Assembly: GCA_009786445.1 (NCBI GenBank) | Contig: WQTE01000005.1 | Coordinates: 1 to 53,005, forward strand | Origin: Oscillospiraceae bacterium | GTDB lineage: Bacteria > Bacillota > Clostridia > Oscillospirales > Oscillospiraceae | Length of the DNA stretch: 53,005 nucleotides | Direction: 5' to 3' | Shown here: one piece after another, positions 3,708 through 11,370 of the stretch | How the letters are laid out: each line of letters starts with the position of its first letter | How positions within the stretch are numbered: position 1 is the stretch's first letter | Notes under the pieces: model-generated | Told to the model about the DNA's origin: nothing | Databases searched by the model: none | What the model saw: the letters and a program-made list of their open reading frames with translations, nothing else | Translations under genes and position numbers: made by a program

Positions 3708-4841
3708 CTAACCAAAATCGCCTTTCAAGTATCTTTCTTTATCTCTTCCCTTTTCGTGGTAAGCCACTCTGCTTTCAAAATAGTGCTCCCAACCTGTCAA
3801 TTGTGCAAGAGCATTTATCAGCAGAGTGTAGTTGCCCTTGACAGACAGAGCAATTATCTGCAAAATCAGTGCACCAATATCGTCAACACTGTTTTCCACC
3901 GCTAATGAGTCTAACCAGTTATTCATAAAAGCGTTAAAGTCGTGGATATTCAAGGCATCGAAGTCGGTACTCGGTATATCCAAATCCTCAATGTCTTTTT
4001 TCATCAACTTATTTACCATAATGGTAATCGCCATGCCGTAAAGTAAGTCGTCTCCGCTTATGTACCCAAGTTCAGCTTGATAGTATTGCTTGTAAATAGG
4101 CCGGGACTTGCTGATGATTTGATTGATGTTATTAATCGACTCCGTCATATTCCTGATGATACGGTAAAATTCAGAGCTTTCATCTATATTATTGACCACT
4201 CTTTCAACAAAGAGCATCTTTGATATACAGGTGCAAGTCAGCAGTACATCGACAAGATAAATGAGTGCGTCTCGGTAATAGTCACTGAGATGGTCAAGTT
4301 TATAGTTGCGCCTTGAATCAGTAATTTCATCGTTTCCTGAGAGCGCAGAGATAAGCTTAACAGGTTCAAAAATCCCTATAGTTTCGCATATTTTATCTAT
4401 ATAGACTTTATTTGTTTTGTTCGCTTTGCCGACCGGACTACGCTTCGGTAAGGTGTCTTCGATGCCCTTGCGTACAAAAGATTTGGTGCTGCGTAAGTAC
4501 TTATTGATTTTATTTTTATAGTAGTTTTTGTCAAACAGCAGGTTAAACTGGTCTATATCTGTCATTTTATAGGTGTCTTTGCAGAAACTCAGCAGCACAA
4601 CACTAATATCAGCCTTTTTCATCGAGCTGATGTAAGGGGAGTTTGTTTTAGACTTGGTATCACTCAGCATAATTGCAATCGCGCTAATCGTAATCATATC
4701 TAAACTATCAAACTGACCCAGGACTGCGTTGTCGAAGTTCTCATTGTCGTTGCTGTTTAATTTTAACCTTTCAAGCAGCTTCTTCACAGGATTACCGTAA
4801 TCGGACTTTTGCTCCCCATCAACGATTTTACCGGGAGTCAA
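3708..4841 (-). CDS. Conserved-looking protein of unknown function (377 aa)
   Basis: I do not recognise this protein. It is mostly helical, has no signal peptide or obvious membrane segment, is rich in Asn, Asp, Lys and Ile, and ends in a charged tail (ESRVAYHEKGRDKERY). The TTG at 4841 is chosen as start because GGGGAG lies 7 bp before it; the longer TTG start at 4862 has no ribosome site. Downstream, the phosphodiesterase starts within 11 bp of its stop, so it is first in an apparent three-gene operon (unknown, GDPD, lipoprotein). No catalytic motif is visible; a scaffold or regulator is as likely as an enzyme. Confidence 0.7.
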   Translation of the reverse strand: MTPGKIVDGEQKSDYGNPVKKLLERLKLNSNDNENFDNAVLGQFDSLDMITISAIAIMLSDTKSKTNSPYISSMKKADISVVLLSFCKDTYKMTDIDQFNLLFDKNYYKNKINKYLRSTKSFVRKGIEDTLPKRSPVGKANKTNKVYIDKICETIGIFEPVKLISALSGNDEITDSRRNYKLDHLSDYYRDALIYLVDVLLTCTCISKMLFVERVVNNIDESSEFYRIIRNMTESINNINQIISKSRPIYKQYYQAELGYISGDDLLYGMAITIMVNKLMKKDIEDLDIPSTDFDALNIHDFNAFMNNWLDSLAVENSVDDIGALILQIIALSVKGNYTLLINALAQLTGWEHYFESRVAYHEKGRDKERYLKGDFG

Positions 4842-4953
4842 AGTCGTTCTCCCCTTTAACAAGTTATAACGTAAAAATGACTTCCATACATCCCACGCAG
4901 TATATCATATTCTTTTGTCAATTTCTATATAAAATTTTTCAGTTTTTGCAATA

Positions 4954-5025: not shown

Positions 5026-5937
5026 TTGAAATCATTAAATAAAGCACTGCTGCTGTTCATTTTTATATTTTCTTTTGTGGTCGGGTGCGCCGGAGCACCT
5101 GAGGAAGAACTGCCGGAAGTTACAGCAACCCCCAGACCCACGCCGATTATTACTCCTACTCCGGAAGTTCCCGATTTTGACCAGATAGAATGCTCCCATT
5201 TTTGGAGGCTTCCCGACTGCCACACCCCCAGATACTGCCTTGACTGTGGTGAAATTTCCGCAGGACCTACCCCACATGAGCCGGCCGGAGGCAACTTCCA
5301 ACAACCGCCGGTTTGCATACTCTGCGGAGATATCGTCGGAGAGGTGCTTCCGCCAAATTTCACAACACTTGGGTTTCAAATAAACACCACTTTCGGCAGG
5401 TCGTATGATTTTCTCACCGTGACAAGTGAAGAGCCGACAATTGCCACTACGGGAACAGTTTCACTGTTATTTGTTGATATTTTTGAAACCGAAGAAGGCT
5501 ACCCAAGAGTGCCGGGCCACCAATTCATCCGCGCAAGGATTATGATGCTTTTCGATGATGAGTCTGCTAGGGAGCATGGCTATATGTATATTATCGGGCA
5601 TGTCGATTACTACAGCATGAATCTAAATGACCCGTCCCTGCCCTTTGATGAGCTTGCTGAAAGCGATATTGAAGGCTTTAGGATTTCAAACAGAACTCTC
5701 AATTTAAATGGTGAGGAACGTGAGTATTTTATCAGATACGAAGAAATCATGAGCACCTGGGTCGATGGTGTTGCACACGTGATGCGAGAATACACTTTTA
5801 TAGTCCCCATAGGTTATGACGGCATGGTCATCTACCTTTCCAACGCCGCAAACTGGAGAGCAGGCGGAAACAGAATCCTCTCTGACAACATAGACAATAA
5901 CACCCTATTTTTCAGATTGGTGGGACAGACAGGGTGA
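5026..5937 (+). CDS. Predicted lipoprotein with zinc-ribbon-like Cys pairs
   Basis: The 303-residue product has a lipoprotein signal (basic start, hydrophobic core, FSFVVG before Cys21) and then a Thr/Pro-rich spacer (TATPRPTPIITPTPEVP). Residues ~55-105 carry paired cysteines (CLDCGE and CILCGD, with C and H residues before them) in the pattern of the TCTxPxxCxxCG repeats common in Clostridial surface proteins, which may bind zinc. The rest is a beta-rich domain of unknown type. The start is TTG with AGAGGT about nine bases upstream; no ATG lies near. It ends 8 bp from the convergent P-type ATPase stop. The role is unknown; the position suggests a cell-surface accessory protein. Confidence 0.7.
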   Translation: MKSLNKALLLFIFIFSFVVGCAGAPEEELPEVTATPRPTPIITPTPEVPDFDQIECSHFWRLPDCHTPRYCLDCGEISAGPTPHEPAGGNFQQPPVCILCGDIVGEVLPPNFTTLGFQINTTFGRSYDFLTVTSEEPTIATTGTVSLLFVDIFETEEGYPRVPGHQFIRARIMMLFDDESAREHGYMYIIGHVDYYSMNLNDPSLPFDELAESDIEGFRISNRTLNLNGEEREYFIRYEEIMSTWVDGVAHVMREYTFIVPIGYDGMVIYLSNAANWRAGGNRILSDNIDNNTLFFRLVGQTG

Positions 5938-5945
5938 TCTATCAC

Positions 5946-8648
5946 TTAACCCTGTGAAGAACGCTTTGACAGTTCGTAACCGGCGGTGGTTATGAACGCA
6001 ATCACCAAACAGAGGATTACTTCACCGATGCTGAGCGCAGTTACGGAGAACATAATGCTAATAAACGGAACATACAAAATTACCGCTAAAATGGCGATTA
6101 AAAATAAGAGTGAGACGTTCAGTAACCTGCTGTTAAATAAAACTCTTCCGGATGGGGTAGAGCCCTCGGATTTTGATGGATAGGCAATTAAAACCACCCC
6201 GATAACGAGGGTGAAGAAACACATACTCATGGCGAGAGTTTGCTGACCGCTGTCAGAATTATCTGCAACGACTACGCCGTACAAGTATGCAGCTATAGCA
6301 CCGCCAAAAAGAAACATTGCCCTAGAGATAACGGACGAAAACGTATGCTTACTGAACATAGGTTCTTGCGGATCCCTGGGTTTTCTGTTCATAACACCGG
6401 GTTCCTTCTTCAAAGCCCCTAGAGAAATAGCAGGAAAAGTCACTGCCAACAAGCCTATAAACAAAATCTGTGTGGCAGAAAGCGGTGACGGAAAGCCCAA
6501 AATAACCAAAACGAGATTAATCAATATCAGGCTGAGATTACATCCGAGAATATAACCGATAACCTTTCTGATGTTGTCATAAATTGTCCTGCCTTGCTCA
6601 ATTGCAAACGCAATACTTTCAAAGCTGTCGTCAGTTAAAATCATTTCGGCAGCCTCTTTTGCTGTATCAGTGCCCGTAAGCCCCATAGCTATACCAACGT
6701 CAGACATTTTCATAGAAGGAACATCATGTACACCTTCGCCTGTCATTGCAACAACATTTTTACGTCTCTTGATTGCAGTTATAATACGCACCCTATGCTC
6801 GGGTGAAACCCTTGCAAAAACATTGACATATTCCACCCTCTCCGTAAGGGCATCATCACTCAGAGCATCAATTTCACTACCATCGAGTACCTCGCCGCCA
6901 CTTCCTATTATTCCGAGCTGCCTTGCTGCCGCTGCAGCGGTTAGCTTGTGGTCACCCGTTATCATTTTCACATTGATTCCCGCCGCTTGGCACTTCTCAA
7001 TCGACTCTTTTGCTTCCTCGCGCAGCGGGTCAATGAGGCACATCATCCCTACATATATGAGGTCATCCTCAACGTTGTCAATTGCCTCTGGGCTGCTGTA
7101 TTCTTTATATGCACACGCCAAAACGCGCATAGATTTAGATGCAAATTCCTCGTTTCTGGCTAAGAGCCGCCGCTTAATTGACTCAGACATCGGAACAATC
7201 TCGCCATCTAAGTAAACTCCCGACGAGCGGTTGATAATAGCCTCGGGCGCACCTTTCGTATTCATGATTACCTTGCCCGCTTGCATATTATAGGTTGACA
7301 TCATTTTCCTTGCAGCGTCAAAGGGAATCTCGTGAATACGCTGGTTTGCGGCATTCAGTGCCATCTTTTCCAGACCAAGTTTTGCCCCGAACACAAGCAA
7401 AGCACCTTCTGTCGGGTCGCCTCTTACTTGGGAATTCCTCTTGTCAAAAGTGGCATCGTTACACAAAACAGCAATCTCAGCAATGAGTGCTATGTTTCTT
7501 GACATGATGCCGTCTGATACTACAAGCCCTTTTGCCTTATAACCGACACCTGTCACTTCATAGAGGTTTTCAAAGTCAGCTACCTGTACTACGGTCATCA
7601 TGTTTTGAGTAAGAGTTCCTGTCTTGTTTGAGCAAATTATGGTAGTGCTCCCCAGTGCTTCTACAGCTCTTAGTTTCTTGACCAATACTTTTGACCTTAC
7701 CATTCTCTTTGCACTGGGAGCGAGTATTACCGTTGCTGCAATAGCTAAGCCGCTCGGAACTGCGGCAACCGCAAGCGAGGCAGAAACTAAAAACATATTG
7801 TCAATCTCGCGATAATTGCCGAATCCGAGAAAGTTATACAATAAACCTATCAAAAATACTGCTGCACAAGCGGCAATACACAGTATTCCGAGAGATTTCC
7901 CCATATTGTCCAGTTTGTCTCGGAGCGGTGTATTTTCATCATTCTCTGTCTCGGCAACTGCCCCGCCTCTTGCTGCCTCGGAGTCAATCCCTGTGGCAAA
8001 AACAACACCCGCACCCCTGCCGTAAATGACTGTGCTTCCCATGTATGCAAGGTTTTTTCTATCAGAGAGTGAAGCACCCTCCGGGATTATTGCATTAGCT
8101 TGTTTTCTGACCACAGTATATTCCCCGATAACCGAAGATTCATCAACACGCATATTCACAGTTTCAATCAGCCTGAGATCCGCCGGTATACAATCTCCAC
8201 AATCCAGCATGACTATATCGCCCGGCACTACGTCAGGGGTGTCAATTTTCATGATTTGACCATCTCTTTTAACTTTCACCTTTGGACTTGCCAATTCGTT
8301 GATTTCACGCAAAGCATTATCGGCGTTACTCTTCCGCGATACCCCTATAGCCATATATACCATAAGAATAGCAAATATGATGATAGCTTCAGAAAATCTT
8401 CCAAAACCTTCACCATAACCAAAAATTACTGACACAACAACTGCAACTATCAGTACAATGACAAGAACATCCTTAAACTGACGTATAATATTGATTACAG
8501 ATGGCTTACGTGACGACCGAAGCAGTCTGTTTAGTCCGTAGTCTTTCGCTCGCTCGCTCGCCTGCTCAGAGGTAAGTCCTATAACAACATCTGTATTTAG
8601 CTCGGAAAGAGCCTGATCAATATCCATTGTATAAAAATTCGCGCTCAT
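5946..8648 (-). CDS. P2A-type ATPase homologue with substituted catalytic and ion-binding residues (pseudo-ATPase)
   Basis: The 900-residue product has the full architecture of Ca2+-type P-ATPases: cation N-domain, TM1-2, actuator domain, TM3-4, P and N domains, TM5-10. The key residues are changed. The phosphorylated Asp of DKTGT is Asn341 (codon 7626-7628, AAC). TGES reads IGEY at 174-177 (the Glu is kept). PEGLP in TM4 reads PSGLA from 298. TGDGVND reads TGEGVHD at 636-642. In TM6 the NLVTD ligand set reads GLLAV (732-736), and in TM5 the Glu of N..E is Leu707. Nucleotide-binding motifs are kept: FDAARK 443-448, KGAPE 465-469, DPLR 540, TGDH 564. It should bind ATP but not form the phosphoenzyme or hold Ca2+ in the usual way. 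The start is ATG with GGGAGG upstream. Promoter: TTTACT-17-TATAAT at 8699-8727. I infer a domesticated, non-pumping role. Confidence 0.9.
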   Translation of the reverse strand: MSANFYTMDIDQALSELNTDVVIGLTSEQASERAKDYGLNRLLRSSRKPSVINIIRQFKDVLVIVLIVAVVVSVIFGYGEGFGRFSEAIIIFAILMVYMAIGVSRKSNADNALREINELASPKVKVKRDGQIMKIDTPDVVPGDIVMLDCGDCIPADLRLIETVNMRVDESSVIGEYTVVRKQANAIIPEGASLSDRKNLAYMGSTVIYGRGAGVVFATGIDSEAARGGAVAETENDENTPLRDKLDNMGKSLGILCIAACAAVFLIGLLYNFLGFGNYREIDNMFLVSASLAVAAVPSGLAIAATVILAPSAKRMVRSKVLVKKLRAVEALGSTTIICSNKTGTLTQNMMTVVQVADFENLYEVTGVGYKAKGLVVSDGIMSRNIALIAEIAVLCNDATFDKRNSQVRGDPTEGALLVFGAKLGLEKMALNAANQRIHEIPFDAARKMMSTYNMQAGKVIMNTKGAPEAIINRSSGVYLDGEIVPMSESIKRRLLARNEEFASKSMRVLACAYKEYSSPEAIDNVEDDLIYVGMMCLIDPLREEAKESIEKCQAAGINVKMITGDHKLTAAAAARQLGIIGSGGEVLDGSEIDALSDDALTERVEYVNVFARVSPEHRVRIITAIKRRKNVVAMTGEGVHDVPSMKMSDVGIAMGLTGTDTAKEAAEMILTDDSFESIAFAIEQGRTIYDNIRKVIGYILGCNLSLILINLVLVILGFPSPLSATQILFIGLLAVTFPAISLGALKKEPGVMNRKPRDPQEPMFSKHTFSSVISRAMFLFGGAIAAYLYGVVVADNSDSGQQTLAMSMCFFTLVIGVVLIAYPSKSEGSTPSGRVLFNSRLLNVSLLFLIAILAVILYVPFISIMFSVTALSIGEVILCLVIAFITTAGYELSKRSSQG

Positions 8649-8684
8649 AGTTATGATTTTCCTCCCAAAAACTATGATAACCTC

Positions 8685-8713
8685 TTGAAACTCATTTAAT
8701 TATATGCTATAAT
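8685..8713 (+). promoter_or_regulatory. Promoter for the metalloprotease gene at 8812
   Basis: TTGAAA at 8685-8690 and TATAAT at 8708-8713 are 17 bp apart, near consensus. It lies on top of the opposing ATPase promoter. The leader would be about 90 nt and contains GGACA ... TGTCC, able to pair loosely. Confidence 0.65.
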
Positions 8714-8727
8714 CTACCAATAGTAAA
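8699..8727 (-). promoter_or_regulatory. Promoter for the P-type ATPase homologue
   Basis: On the minus strand TTTACT (8722-8727) and TATAAT (8699-8704) are 17 bp apart. The two facing promoters share the same 43 bp, so RNA polymerase can probably occupy only one at a time. Confidence 0.55.
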
Positions 8728-8811
8728 GTGTAAAAAGGACATCTCCGGAAACTCAGCAATGACTTTTTGGCGTTGTCCCCTATTGCGGTTAACGAAAGTG
8801 AGGTGATTTGT

Positions 8812-9474
8812 GTGGGCGTAGGCAGAATAGGTGGTTTTAATACAGCCGCCAATGCTTATCAGCATACCAGTAATGCTCATAGACTCCTGGGCACTGCAAA
8901 TCGCTCTCTTGGTACTCCCGGGTCACAAAATCCAACACAGACAGCTATACCCGGTATACTTCCCCTCCAAATCGGAAATATGAGTGCCGCCTTAGTTTTT
9001 CAAAGTACCGATGGCGACAGTGTAGAATTATCACACAGAGCCATGGGTATGCAAGGGTTTACCGGAGGTGCGCATGGAGTTCTTGAGCCGCAGGGTGCTT
9101 GCGAGACCTGCGCAAACCGCCGCTATGTCGATGTTTCAGATGATATGTCTGTCTCTTTCCAGACTCCTACGAATATTCATCCAAGTATAGCCGCCGTCAA
9201 AGTCTCTTCACATGAGCAAGAGCATGTTCGCAACGAGCAAGCCAATGCCGAGCGCAATGACCGCACAATCACCCATCAGTCTGTTACCTTCCAATATGCA
9301 ATTTGCCCCGAATGCGGAAGATTTTACGTTGCAGGTGGCACAACCAGAACTCAGAGCGTAGGAAATACCGAGGAAGAAGACCATACTGTAGGCCCCGACC
9401 TCGGCTCAGGCGTAGGCGACCATGAACATCACCATCATCACCACGGCGACGACGAGGATGGTCACTCACATTGA
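8812..9474 (+). CDS. Putative SprA-related metalloprotease with natural histidine-rich tail
   Basis: The 220-residue product matches the layout of the SprA-related putative metalloprotease family: a disordered Gly/Asn/Thr-rich N-terminus, a CETC pair, then VSSHEQEHVRNE with an HExxH-like metal site (HEQEH), and a CPEC pair before FYVAGGTTRTQ. The cysteine pairs probably hold a second zinc. The C-terminus is DHEHHHHHHGDDEDGHSH, a natural run of six His with acidic residues, able to bind divalent metals. The start is GTG at 8812 because GAGGTGA lies just upstream; the TTG at 8767 has none. It is divergent from the inactive-looking P-type ATPase, with overlapping promoters. No signal peptide. 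Proteolysis is presumed from the family and not shown. Confidence 0.7.
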   Translation: MGVGRIGGFNTAANAYQHTSNAHRLLGTANRSLGTPGSQNPTQTAIPGILPLQIGNMSAALVFQSTDGDSVELSHRAMGMQGFTGGAHGVLEPQGACETCANRRYVDVSDDMSVSFQTPTNIHPSIAAVKVSSHEQEHVRNEQANAERNDRTITHQSVTFQYAICPECGRFYVAGGTTRTQSVGNTEEEDHTVGPDLGSGVGDHEHHHHHHGDDEDGHSH

Positions 9475-9505: not shown

Positions 9506-10858
9506 CTAAAACTCAGCAGAACCCACTGTCCGTGGAAACGGAACTACATCTCTGATATTCGATACACCTGTCAGGTACATAATTAAGCGCTCAAATCCTA
9601 TGCCAAAACCTGCGTGTTTTGTTCCGCCGAAACGCCTTAAATCCAGATACCAACCATAAGATTCCACCTCTAGACCCATCTCTTCTATGCGCCTGGTCAA
9701 AATATCCATGCGTTCCTCGCGCTGGCTGCCGCCGATTAGTTCTCCAACTCCCGGCACAAGCAAATCCATAGCCGCAACAGTTTTCTCATCATCGCTTAGC
9801 CTCATATAGAAAGCCTTTATATCCTTTGGGTAGTCCGTCACAAAGACGGGCTTTTTAAATTGTTTTTCTGATAAAAACCGCTCATGTTCGGTCTGTAGGT
9901 CACAACCCCAGAAAACCGGAAACTCAAAATTTTCTCCCGCGCTTGACAAAAGCTCAATAGCTTCGGTATAAGTGATGTGTCCAAATTTAGAATTTGCAAC
10001 AGATTTCAGTCTTTCAAGAAGACCTTTGCATACAAAATTATCCAGAAATTCCATTTCGAAGGGACAAGACTCAAGTACTTTCTCAATTATATATTTGAGC
10101 ATATCCTCCGCAAGTTTCATGTCGTCGGCAAGGTCGGCAAAGGCGATTTCAGGCTCTATCATCCAAAACTCGGCAGCATGGCGCGGAGTGTTTGAGTTTT
10201 CCGCACGAAAGGTCGGACCAAACGTGTAGACATCAGAGAATGCTAAAGCGTAAGCTTCGGCATTTAACTGACCCGAAACAGTGAGGCCCGCCGGTTTACC
10301 GAAAAAATCCTCTTTATGGTCGGTAGTGACATGGAACATCTCCCCCGCACCCTCAGCATCGCTACAGGTTATAATCGGGGTATGGACATATACAAAACCA
10401 CGCTCCTGAAAGAAACAGTGAATAGCGTGAGCGGCGACAGAGCGAATCCTAAAAACAGCAGAAAATAAATTTGTGCGAGGTCTCAAATGGGCAATAGTCC
10501 GAAGAAACTCGGGAGAATGTCTTTTCTTCTGAAGCGGATACTCGGGAGTCGATTCACCCTCCACGGCCACATCGGTCGCGAGAATCTCAAACGCCTGTTT
10601 GGCATCCGGAGTCAGCTTAAAAGTGCCCGTAGCAACAAAAGCCGCACCTACATTTTGTGAAACAATATCAGAAAAGTTTAAAAGACGTGTTTCATCCAGA
10701 ACAACCTGCACTCCCTTAAAACAGCTTCCGTCATTTAATTCAATAAACCCAAACGCCTTCATATCTCGAATAGACCGAGCCCACCCGCAAACAGTAATCT
10801 CTTTACCATCAAGGGATTCGCCGTTTTGATAAAGCTCCCGAACCTTAACCACTGACAT
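9506..10858 (-). CDS. asnS: Asparagine--tRNA ligase
   Basis: Class IIb aminoacyl-tRNA synthetase that charges tRNA-Asn. The 450 residues hold an OB-fold anticodon-binding domain (~10-105), motif 2 ([21 protein letters not shown]) and motif 3 ([15 protein letters not shown] near the C-terminus). The PRHAAEF form and the length fit AsnS and not AspS. The ATG at 10858 is preceded by AGGAGG with a 6-bp gap; that Shine-Dalgarno sequence lies inside the end of nrdG's coding region, so the two are closely coupled. It is third in the nrdD-nrdG-asnS run. No T-box leader is present, in keeping with its internal operon position. Confidence 0.96.
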
Positions 10859-10875
10859 AAACAACCTCCTACATA

Positions 10876-11370
10876 TCATTCCAGTAACACAGGCGCACCC
10901 GTGACAAGACTTTGCCGGATATCAAGCACTCGCTGATTTCGGCTCTGACACCATTTCACGCTAAGAGTCCGCTCGGACTCAACATAGGGACCGTCAACGA
11001 GCACGTCAATATTTCCCAGAAACTCTGATATTGAAGCATCGCTCTCTGAGAGCCGACAAAGCTCCTCAAAAACAAATCCTGTAAAAACCCAAACATTCAG
11101 TCCGAAAGACCGTGCGGCGGCGGCAAGCTGTGCAGAGTCAGCCACTTGCTCAAAAGGCTCGCCACCGGAAAGAGTAAGCCCATCTGTAAGGGGATTCGCC
11201 CTCATCTTATCTATCAGCTTCGCGACATCAATATTCTCGCCGCCTGACTCATCCCAAGTGTCCGGATTGTGGCAACCCGCACACCTAAACTGACACCCCT
11301 GTGTAAAAACAACAAACCTCAGACCGGGTCCATCGACAATAGAGTCCTCAACAATACCGGCAATTTGCAT
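10876..11370 (-). CDS. nrdG: Anaerobic ribonucleoside-triphosphate reductase activating enzyme
   Basis: Small radical-SAM enzyme that creates the glycyl radical on NrdD. CQFRCAGC (residues 26-33) is the CX3CX2C cluster motif; SIVDGPGLR at the start and TLSGGEPF (SAM-binding GGE) are typical. The ATG at 11370 matches the family start ([14 protein letters not shown]); upstream candidates at 11385 (ATG) and 11394 (TTG) would add eight residues, and none has a strong ribosome site, so the exact start is uncertain. It follows nrdD by about 50 bp and precedes asnS. Confidence 0.93.

Follow-up and report, generated by a model that had tools for sequence, protein, structure and literature searches.

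A P2A-type ATPase lacking the phosphorylated aspartate and retaining a constrained nucleotide-binding domain in an Oscillospiraceae bacterium

The window analyzed here is a 53,005-nucleotide stretch of contig WQTE01000005.1 from an Oscillospiraceae bacterium. It contains a full-length ATPase gene in which the phosphorylated residue and most ion ligands of a working pump are replaced. The question raised by this locus is whether such a gene is decaying, is still active by some other route, or is kept for a role other than transport.

Sequence and predicted fold of the ATPase

The ATPase ORF (5946..8648, minus strand) begins with ATG and encodes 900 amino acids with no internal stop, as an earlier note on this DNA had claimed. 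The product contains the five domains of P2-type ATPases (Pfam), and its top match among solved structures is LMCA1 (E 1e-169). Its homology and domain order are those of a P2A pump, and trees place it within a clade of live pumps. It scores below the cut-off of the NCBIfam SERCA-type and PMR1-type models (530 of 703 and 584 of 798, respectively), as does the live relative in genome G006 (648 and 670). A Shine-Dalgarno sequence, GGGAGG, lies 12 bases 5’ of the ATG (8661..8666, minus strand). Upstream of it is a promoter-like site, TTTACT-17-TATAAT (8699..8727, minus strand), recognized by consensus match only (10 of 12 positions); sites of this kind number 19 against 13.4 (sd 3.8) in shuffles, a modest excess. 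Divergent from the ATPase, a near-consensus promoter, TTGAAA-17-TATAAT with a TG extension (8685-8713, plus strand), faces the gene at 8767-9474.

The altered sites were identified by comparison with live relatives, and the roles of motifs and ion ligands are presumed to be those of SERCA. Codon 341 (7626..7628, minus strand), which was also read directly, is AAC and places Asn341 where the phosphorylated Asp is expected, so that DKTGT reads NKTGT. In the actuator domain, TGES reads IGEY beginning at I174 (8118..8129, minus strand), with the Glu retained. The TM4 Glu ion ligand is replaced by Ser299 (7752..7754, minus strand). TGDGVND reads TGEGVHD, with E638 and H641 (6723..6743, minus strand). 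The TM5 Glu ligand is replaced by Leu707 (6528..6530, minus strand), and Asn704 of TM5 is retained. Residues 732-736 of TM6 (6441..6455, minus strand) read G-L-L-A-V in place of N-L-L-T-D, with Asn, Thr, and Asp exchanged for G732, A735, and V736. The earlier note had listed the loss of the defining Asp and the changes in TGES, TGDGVND, TM5, and TM6, all of which are borne out here. Its claim of an altered PEGLP stands for the TM4 Glu and falls for the rest of the motif, as live subfamily genes themselves read PEGI, PEGV, or PEGA. Three further changes absent from that note are TM8 Glu to V818, Lys350 to Met, and DPPR to DPLR. The protein is thus without the phosphorylatable Asp, the TGES loop, and most of the TM4, TM5, and TM6 Ca2+ ligands of a working pump.

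Unchanged are GDPTEGA, PFD..RK, KGAPE, and RVLA, which are the motifs of the nucleotide-binding (N) domain, as well as TGDH and Asp642. The note was therefore right that the nucleotide-binding motifs are retained (PFD..RK, KGAPE, and TGDH).

An Asp-to-Asn exchange at the phosphorylation site is described as preventing formation of the phosphoenzyme in SERCA, Na,K-ATPase, and H,K-ATPase (PMC13322241). The exchanges support the view that the window ATPase is catalytically dead. With no acceptor Asp and with most ion ligands gone, it would therefore have no Post-Albers cycle.

An AlphaFold model of the window ATPase built with 33 sequences has a pLDDT of 82.4 and a P2-pump-like fold; a first model was poor (63.6). 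Foldseek gave TM-scores of 0.87 to SPCA1 in the CaE1-ATP state (8iwr), 0.88 to SERCA in both the E1.Mg and E2.ATP states, and approximately 0.62-0.70 to most E2P-like states. The model is built mostly on live relatives and does not prove a conformation.

Live and dead relatives at one locus

Among 60 related genomes, all matches with E <= 1e-150 and more than 50% identity belong to the window’s genus. At E <= 1e-180 the genus set contains 12 subfamily genes in 11 of 19 genomes. When the C-terminal region of the ATPase was used to scan named genomes, 18 loci were returned, 10 of which were already in the set and eight of which were new. Four of the eight come from records labeled Defluviitaleaceae and one from a record labeled Clostridiales, so members of the subfamily may exist outside the genus. 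Sixteen of the 18 named loci carry sample codes (Co191, Emb289, Lab288, and Th196) given as higher-termite guts in PMC7024585, and the remaining two carry another code (Pal332), which is not one of these.

The 20 distinct subfamily genes can be sorted by motif into 17 live and three dead copies (window, G010, and G013), the dead ones altered at the same sites. All 17 live genes retain TGES, PEG, DKTGT, TGDGVND, N..E of TM5, N..TD of TM6, and the TM8 Glu; L070, which is counted among the live genes, is truncated by the end of its contig. The three dead genes are unlike each other at most catalytic sites. In the order window, G010, and G013, D341 is replaced by N, Y, and N; E299 by S, M, and S; E707 by L, L, and R; N732 by G, C, and S; D736 by V, S, and E; and N641 by H, R, and R. 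Basic residues are found at some ion-ligand positions in G010 and G013. The earlier note had proposed conservation of Asn341 among homologues as a check, and the residues found (N, Y, and N) make it no family mark. It had also named a normal DKTGT in sister genomes, combined with broken frames here, as evidence against its reading; sister genomes do have the normal motif, but the frame here is unbroken.

The frame of the G010 gene is open, as is the 830-codon frame of the G013 gene (L041). In the latter, the main actuator segment is for the most part missing or unalignable, having shrunk to a short, partly alanine-rich stretch near the gene start, and the Pfam E1-E2 ATPase model scores under its cut-off (23.8 of 28.1). 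Further dead pumps in the order were sought with a DNA pattern for C-[S/T]-N-K-T-G-T, which is blind to the Tyr form and to the form in G013. It has five matches in 394 genomes, of which only the one in the window is a P-type ATPase by its flanking translation, and the other four were rejected as apparent chance matches. The Asp version of the same pattern is present in 300 of the 394 genomes.

The locus shared by dead and live genomes is marked by an asnS-type gene (9506..10879, minus strand; 9 of 12 loci), which we take from its sequence to be asparagine-tRNA ligase. It neighbors the ATPase in all three dead loci and in six of nine live loci (G006, G009, G002, G005, G007, and G008), a single small gene intervening in some genomes. 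The ATPase lies elsewhere in three loci (the second copy of G002, G016, and G004). This comparison covers 12 loci, and the eight live genes added later are outside it. Because the asnS-linked locus is common to both, the dead gene and the live pump are orthologues by position. The dead copies occupy the locus at which six sister genomes carry live pumps, so the resident pump itself was converted in place. These live orthologues resemble the window ATPase in locus and in sequence (56-58% identity) and differ from it in that their catalytic and ion-binding motifs are intact. A duplicate beside a live copy was considered and rejected, as each dead genome (90-95% complete) has one subfamily gene and the locus is orthologous.

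On the other side of the ATPase, neighborhood comparison identified two gene families. The lipoprotein-like fam11 (5026..5937, plus strand) is convergent with the ATPase and is also found in G010 and G002. Beyond it lies fam2 (3708..4862, minus strand), a conserved gene with a domain of approximately 340 residues (for example, in L048, 1429-4884). No Pfam match above cut-off was found in six of eight fam2 copies tested, the G010 copy giving a weak sub-threshold match (E 0.022), and the window copy has no NCBIfam match. The fam2 proteins of G006, G002, and G005 are extended by a membrane-like segment at the N terminus and by a linker, reaching 543, 713, and 1151 amino acids, respectively.

The evidence on one versus more conversions conflicts. 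The dead genes form one clade in a 36-gene tree (SH-aLRT 98) and in a FastTree run (98), the latter subject to a long-branch warning. In the 20-gene tree the dead clade has support of 71/89, and a grouping of G013 with G006 is also not rejected (AU p 0.355). The N-domain tree places G013 with G006 (93/92), with an AU p of 0.158 for a single dead clade. The genome markers rpoB, IF-2, asnS, and fam2 combined give the same grouping (98/97; one-clade AU p 0.044), as do rpoB and IF-2 alone (86/86; one-clade AU p 0.286); for asnS alone the AU p is 0.163. Derived residues shared by the dead genes are highly homoplasious (nine in all three; 24, 19, and 15 in pairs). The genome tree leans toward two conversions.

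Selection on the N domain and on the whole gene

Selection was estimated with our own Python script of an MG94-type codon model (F3x4) in place of PAML or HyPhy. The tests cover only three dead genes, and synonymous sites are near saturation.

The N domain (residues 353-530; 7059..7592, minus strand) is constrained in the dead genes about as it is in live pumps. Across the 20 genes, the ratio of omega on dead branches to omega on the others is 0.9 for N, while it is 2.0 for the actuator, 4.5 for TM1-2, 3.4 for TM3-4, 3.5 for P, 6.1 for TM5-6, and 1.8 for TM7-10. When N is compared with the rest of the protein on dead branches, the ratios are 0.87 and 2.64 (2dlnL 124.5), and the difference is found in each dead gene singly (2dlnL of 36.9 for the window, 48.0 for G010, and 60.3 for G013). 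The 12-gene genus set shows N slightly relaxed (x1.23, 2dlnL 3.95) and the rest at x2.95. Sliding windows have their minimum at 361-540. Among the 17 live tips the rest ranges from x0.83 to x1.36 and N from x0.23 to x1.75. Five of these tips exceed a 2dlnL of 3.84 (G007, 12.0; G008, 14.7; L071, 16.5; G009, 5.1; G005, 4.3) because N is slow or fast there; their rest is at x0.91-1.17, with no relaxation like that of the dead genes.

N-domain end branches in the amino-acid tree are 0.12 for the window, 0.20 for G010, and 0.39 for G013. The window and G010 proteins differ at 25% of amino acids in N and at 49% elsewhere, while fourfold sites differ by 64% and 63%, respectively. Gene conversion or a slowly changing stretch is not favored as the source of N-domain conservation, given the equal fourfold divergence and an N-domain tree that follows the genome trees.

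Residues T413, E414, F443, M450, K465, and R508, presumably part of the ATP pocket as in SERCA, are identical in all 12 genes compared. Lys448 is lost in G010 only. This pattern fits an ATP-binding role for the constrained domain, although the constraint could serve protein contact instead. An unlikely but still serious alternative is that the N domain is retained as a protein-protein interaction module that contacts, for example, a live pump or fam2 and has lost ATP binding. The constraint does span the whole N domain, where 41 sites are invariant among 16 live genes and only five, five, and eight of these are changed in the three dead genes, and fam2 is conserved beside the ATPase in eight of nine asnS-linked loci. 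However, the universally kept residues include those of the ATP pocket, and fam2, being found next to live pumps as well, is not specific to the dead state.

For the whole gene, omega in the 20-gene set is 0.187 on dead branches and 0.087 on the others, and omega = 1 on dead branches is rejected (2dlnL 470). In the 12-gene set it is 0.069 on live and 0.174 on dead branches, and forcing 1 on the latter costs a 2dlnL of 595. The low dN/dS that the note had suggested looking for is therefore present. With each dead branch free, omega = 1 is only weakly excluded at the window tip (2dlnL 6.3), and the estimate for one short stem branch is poor. A copy evolving neutrally to 20% divergence is expected to contain approximately 14 stops (fewest, 6 in 500 trials), and none is seen. 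Codon positions 1, 2, and 3 of the window and G010 genes differ by 34, 20, and 58%, respectively. These results support purifying selection on the dead genes rather than plain decay. The note’s argument for selection and against recent decay is upheld by the rejection of neutrality and by two more dead orthologues with open frames, with the restriction that live pumps are under stronger selection than the dead genes in the parts other than the N domain.

That the gene is slowly decaying and merely still unbroken is improbable. Such decay would be consistent with the doubled overall omega, with whole-protein end branches of 0.54 (window), 0.79 (G010), and 1.72 (G013) against 0.09-0.24 in live genus genes, and with the mutual differences of the dead genes at most catalytic sites. 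Against it are the rejection of neutrality, the lack of stops in three diverged genes, the concentration of constraint in one domain, and the gene’s own promoter-like site and Shine-Dalgarno sequence.

We consider it very improbable that the protein still transports, hydrolyzes ATP by another route, or is an uncoupled ion channel. The intact predicted fold and the retention of D642, T343, and R613 would allow for such activity, but the window ATPase has other residues at six ion-ligand positions, G010 and G013 have basic residues at some of these, G013 is without most of its actuator segment, and the phosphorylation site of G010 is Tyr. An assembly or base-calling artefact can practically be dismissed even though the source is a draft genome of 201 contigs, since the changes are coherent at functional sites, are matched in two other genomes, and show a normal synonymous-change pattern.

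Proposed role and comparison with known P-type ATPases

The window ATPase would be a pseudo-enzyme form of a P2A pump, in that its catalytic residues are gone, its gene is selected, and its fold is retained by prediction only. It is probably a pseudo-pump that neither phosphorylates nor holds an ion and has been retained as a membrane sensor or scaffold that binds ATP. In this proposal, the resident Ca2+-type P2A pump of the lineage would have been turned into a pseudo-enzyme in place, and the export of Ca2+ would have passed to another P2A pump, either earlier than or during the loss of activity by the resident one. The N domain may still bind ATP without turnover. In Na,K-ATPase, the Asp-to-Asn change raises ATP affinity. 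The protein may serve in the membrane as a scaffold or regulator that responds to nucleotide, perhaps acting on other transporters. SPCA2 acts on Orai1 without pumping. The note’s suggestion of an ATP-sensing or scaffold protein is a plausible conjecture.

All three dead genomes have a live P2A pump that belongs neither to the window subfamily nor to the genus’s common second pump (G000:C14 and G010:C13, which are 86% identical, and G013:C33). G010 and G013 have no further P2A match at E <= 1e-100 apart from the dead gene; the common pump is also present in G000 (C38). A pump of such a type is absent from all eight genomes whose window-type pump is live and is present in seven of the 11 others (Fisher p 0.013), a test that ignores kinship and uses a post hoc grouping and incomplete genomes; a distant P-type ATPase of the live genome G005 (C4, 34%) and those of G011 and G017 are uncounted. 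An orthologue of C38, L159 (G009:C27), reads CSEKTGT, with Asp changed to Glu and the other checked motifs intact. This change is a point mutation or a sequence error.

A broader proposal, put forward tentatively and as less likely than the role suggested for this protein, is that the conversion of P-type pumps into ATP-binding receptors has happened repeatedly in bacteria. Another Ca2+ pump would take over, catalysis and transport (and once even the actuator segment) would be lost, and the N domain would stay under full selection as a membrane energy-charge sensor. Sister species with a live or a dead orthologue at a shared locus offer a natural experiment on what is worth retaining of a pump once pumping stops. 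The answer here is the N domain, and non-transport roles of P-type ATPases become directly testable.

Compared with LMCA1 (lmo0841), SPCA, and SERCA, the window ATPase is alike in its full-length homology, modeled fold, and kept N-domain motifs, and differs in lacking the phosphorylatable Asp, TGES, and most TM4, TM5, TM6, and TM8 ligands. No bacterial pseudo-P-type ATPase was found described in the open-licence literature searched. TMEM94/ERMA is a P-type-like protein without TGES for which one study reports micromolar AMPPCP affinity and no detected ATPase activity (PMC12134183). Its GDGVND is replaced by GSSANL, yet its Asp is kept (DKQGIL), and Mg2+ transport requiring that Asp has been reported (PMC13322241). 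TMEM94/ERMA is an animal protein, whereas the window ATPase derives from a bacterial P2A pump that was converted while its sisters stayed live, with a site that reads NKTGT and with P2A pumps as its best solved relatives. TMEM94 is the nearest precedent for the proposed role, and a disputed one.
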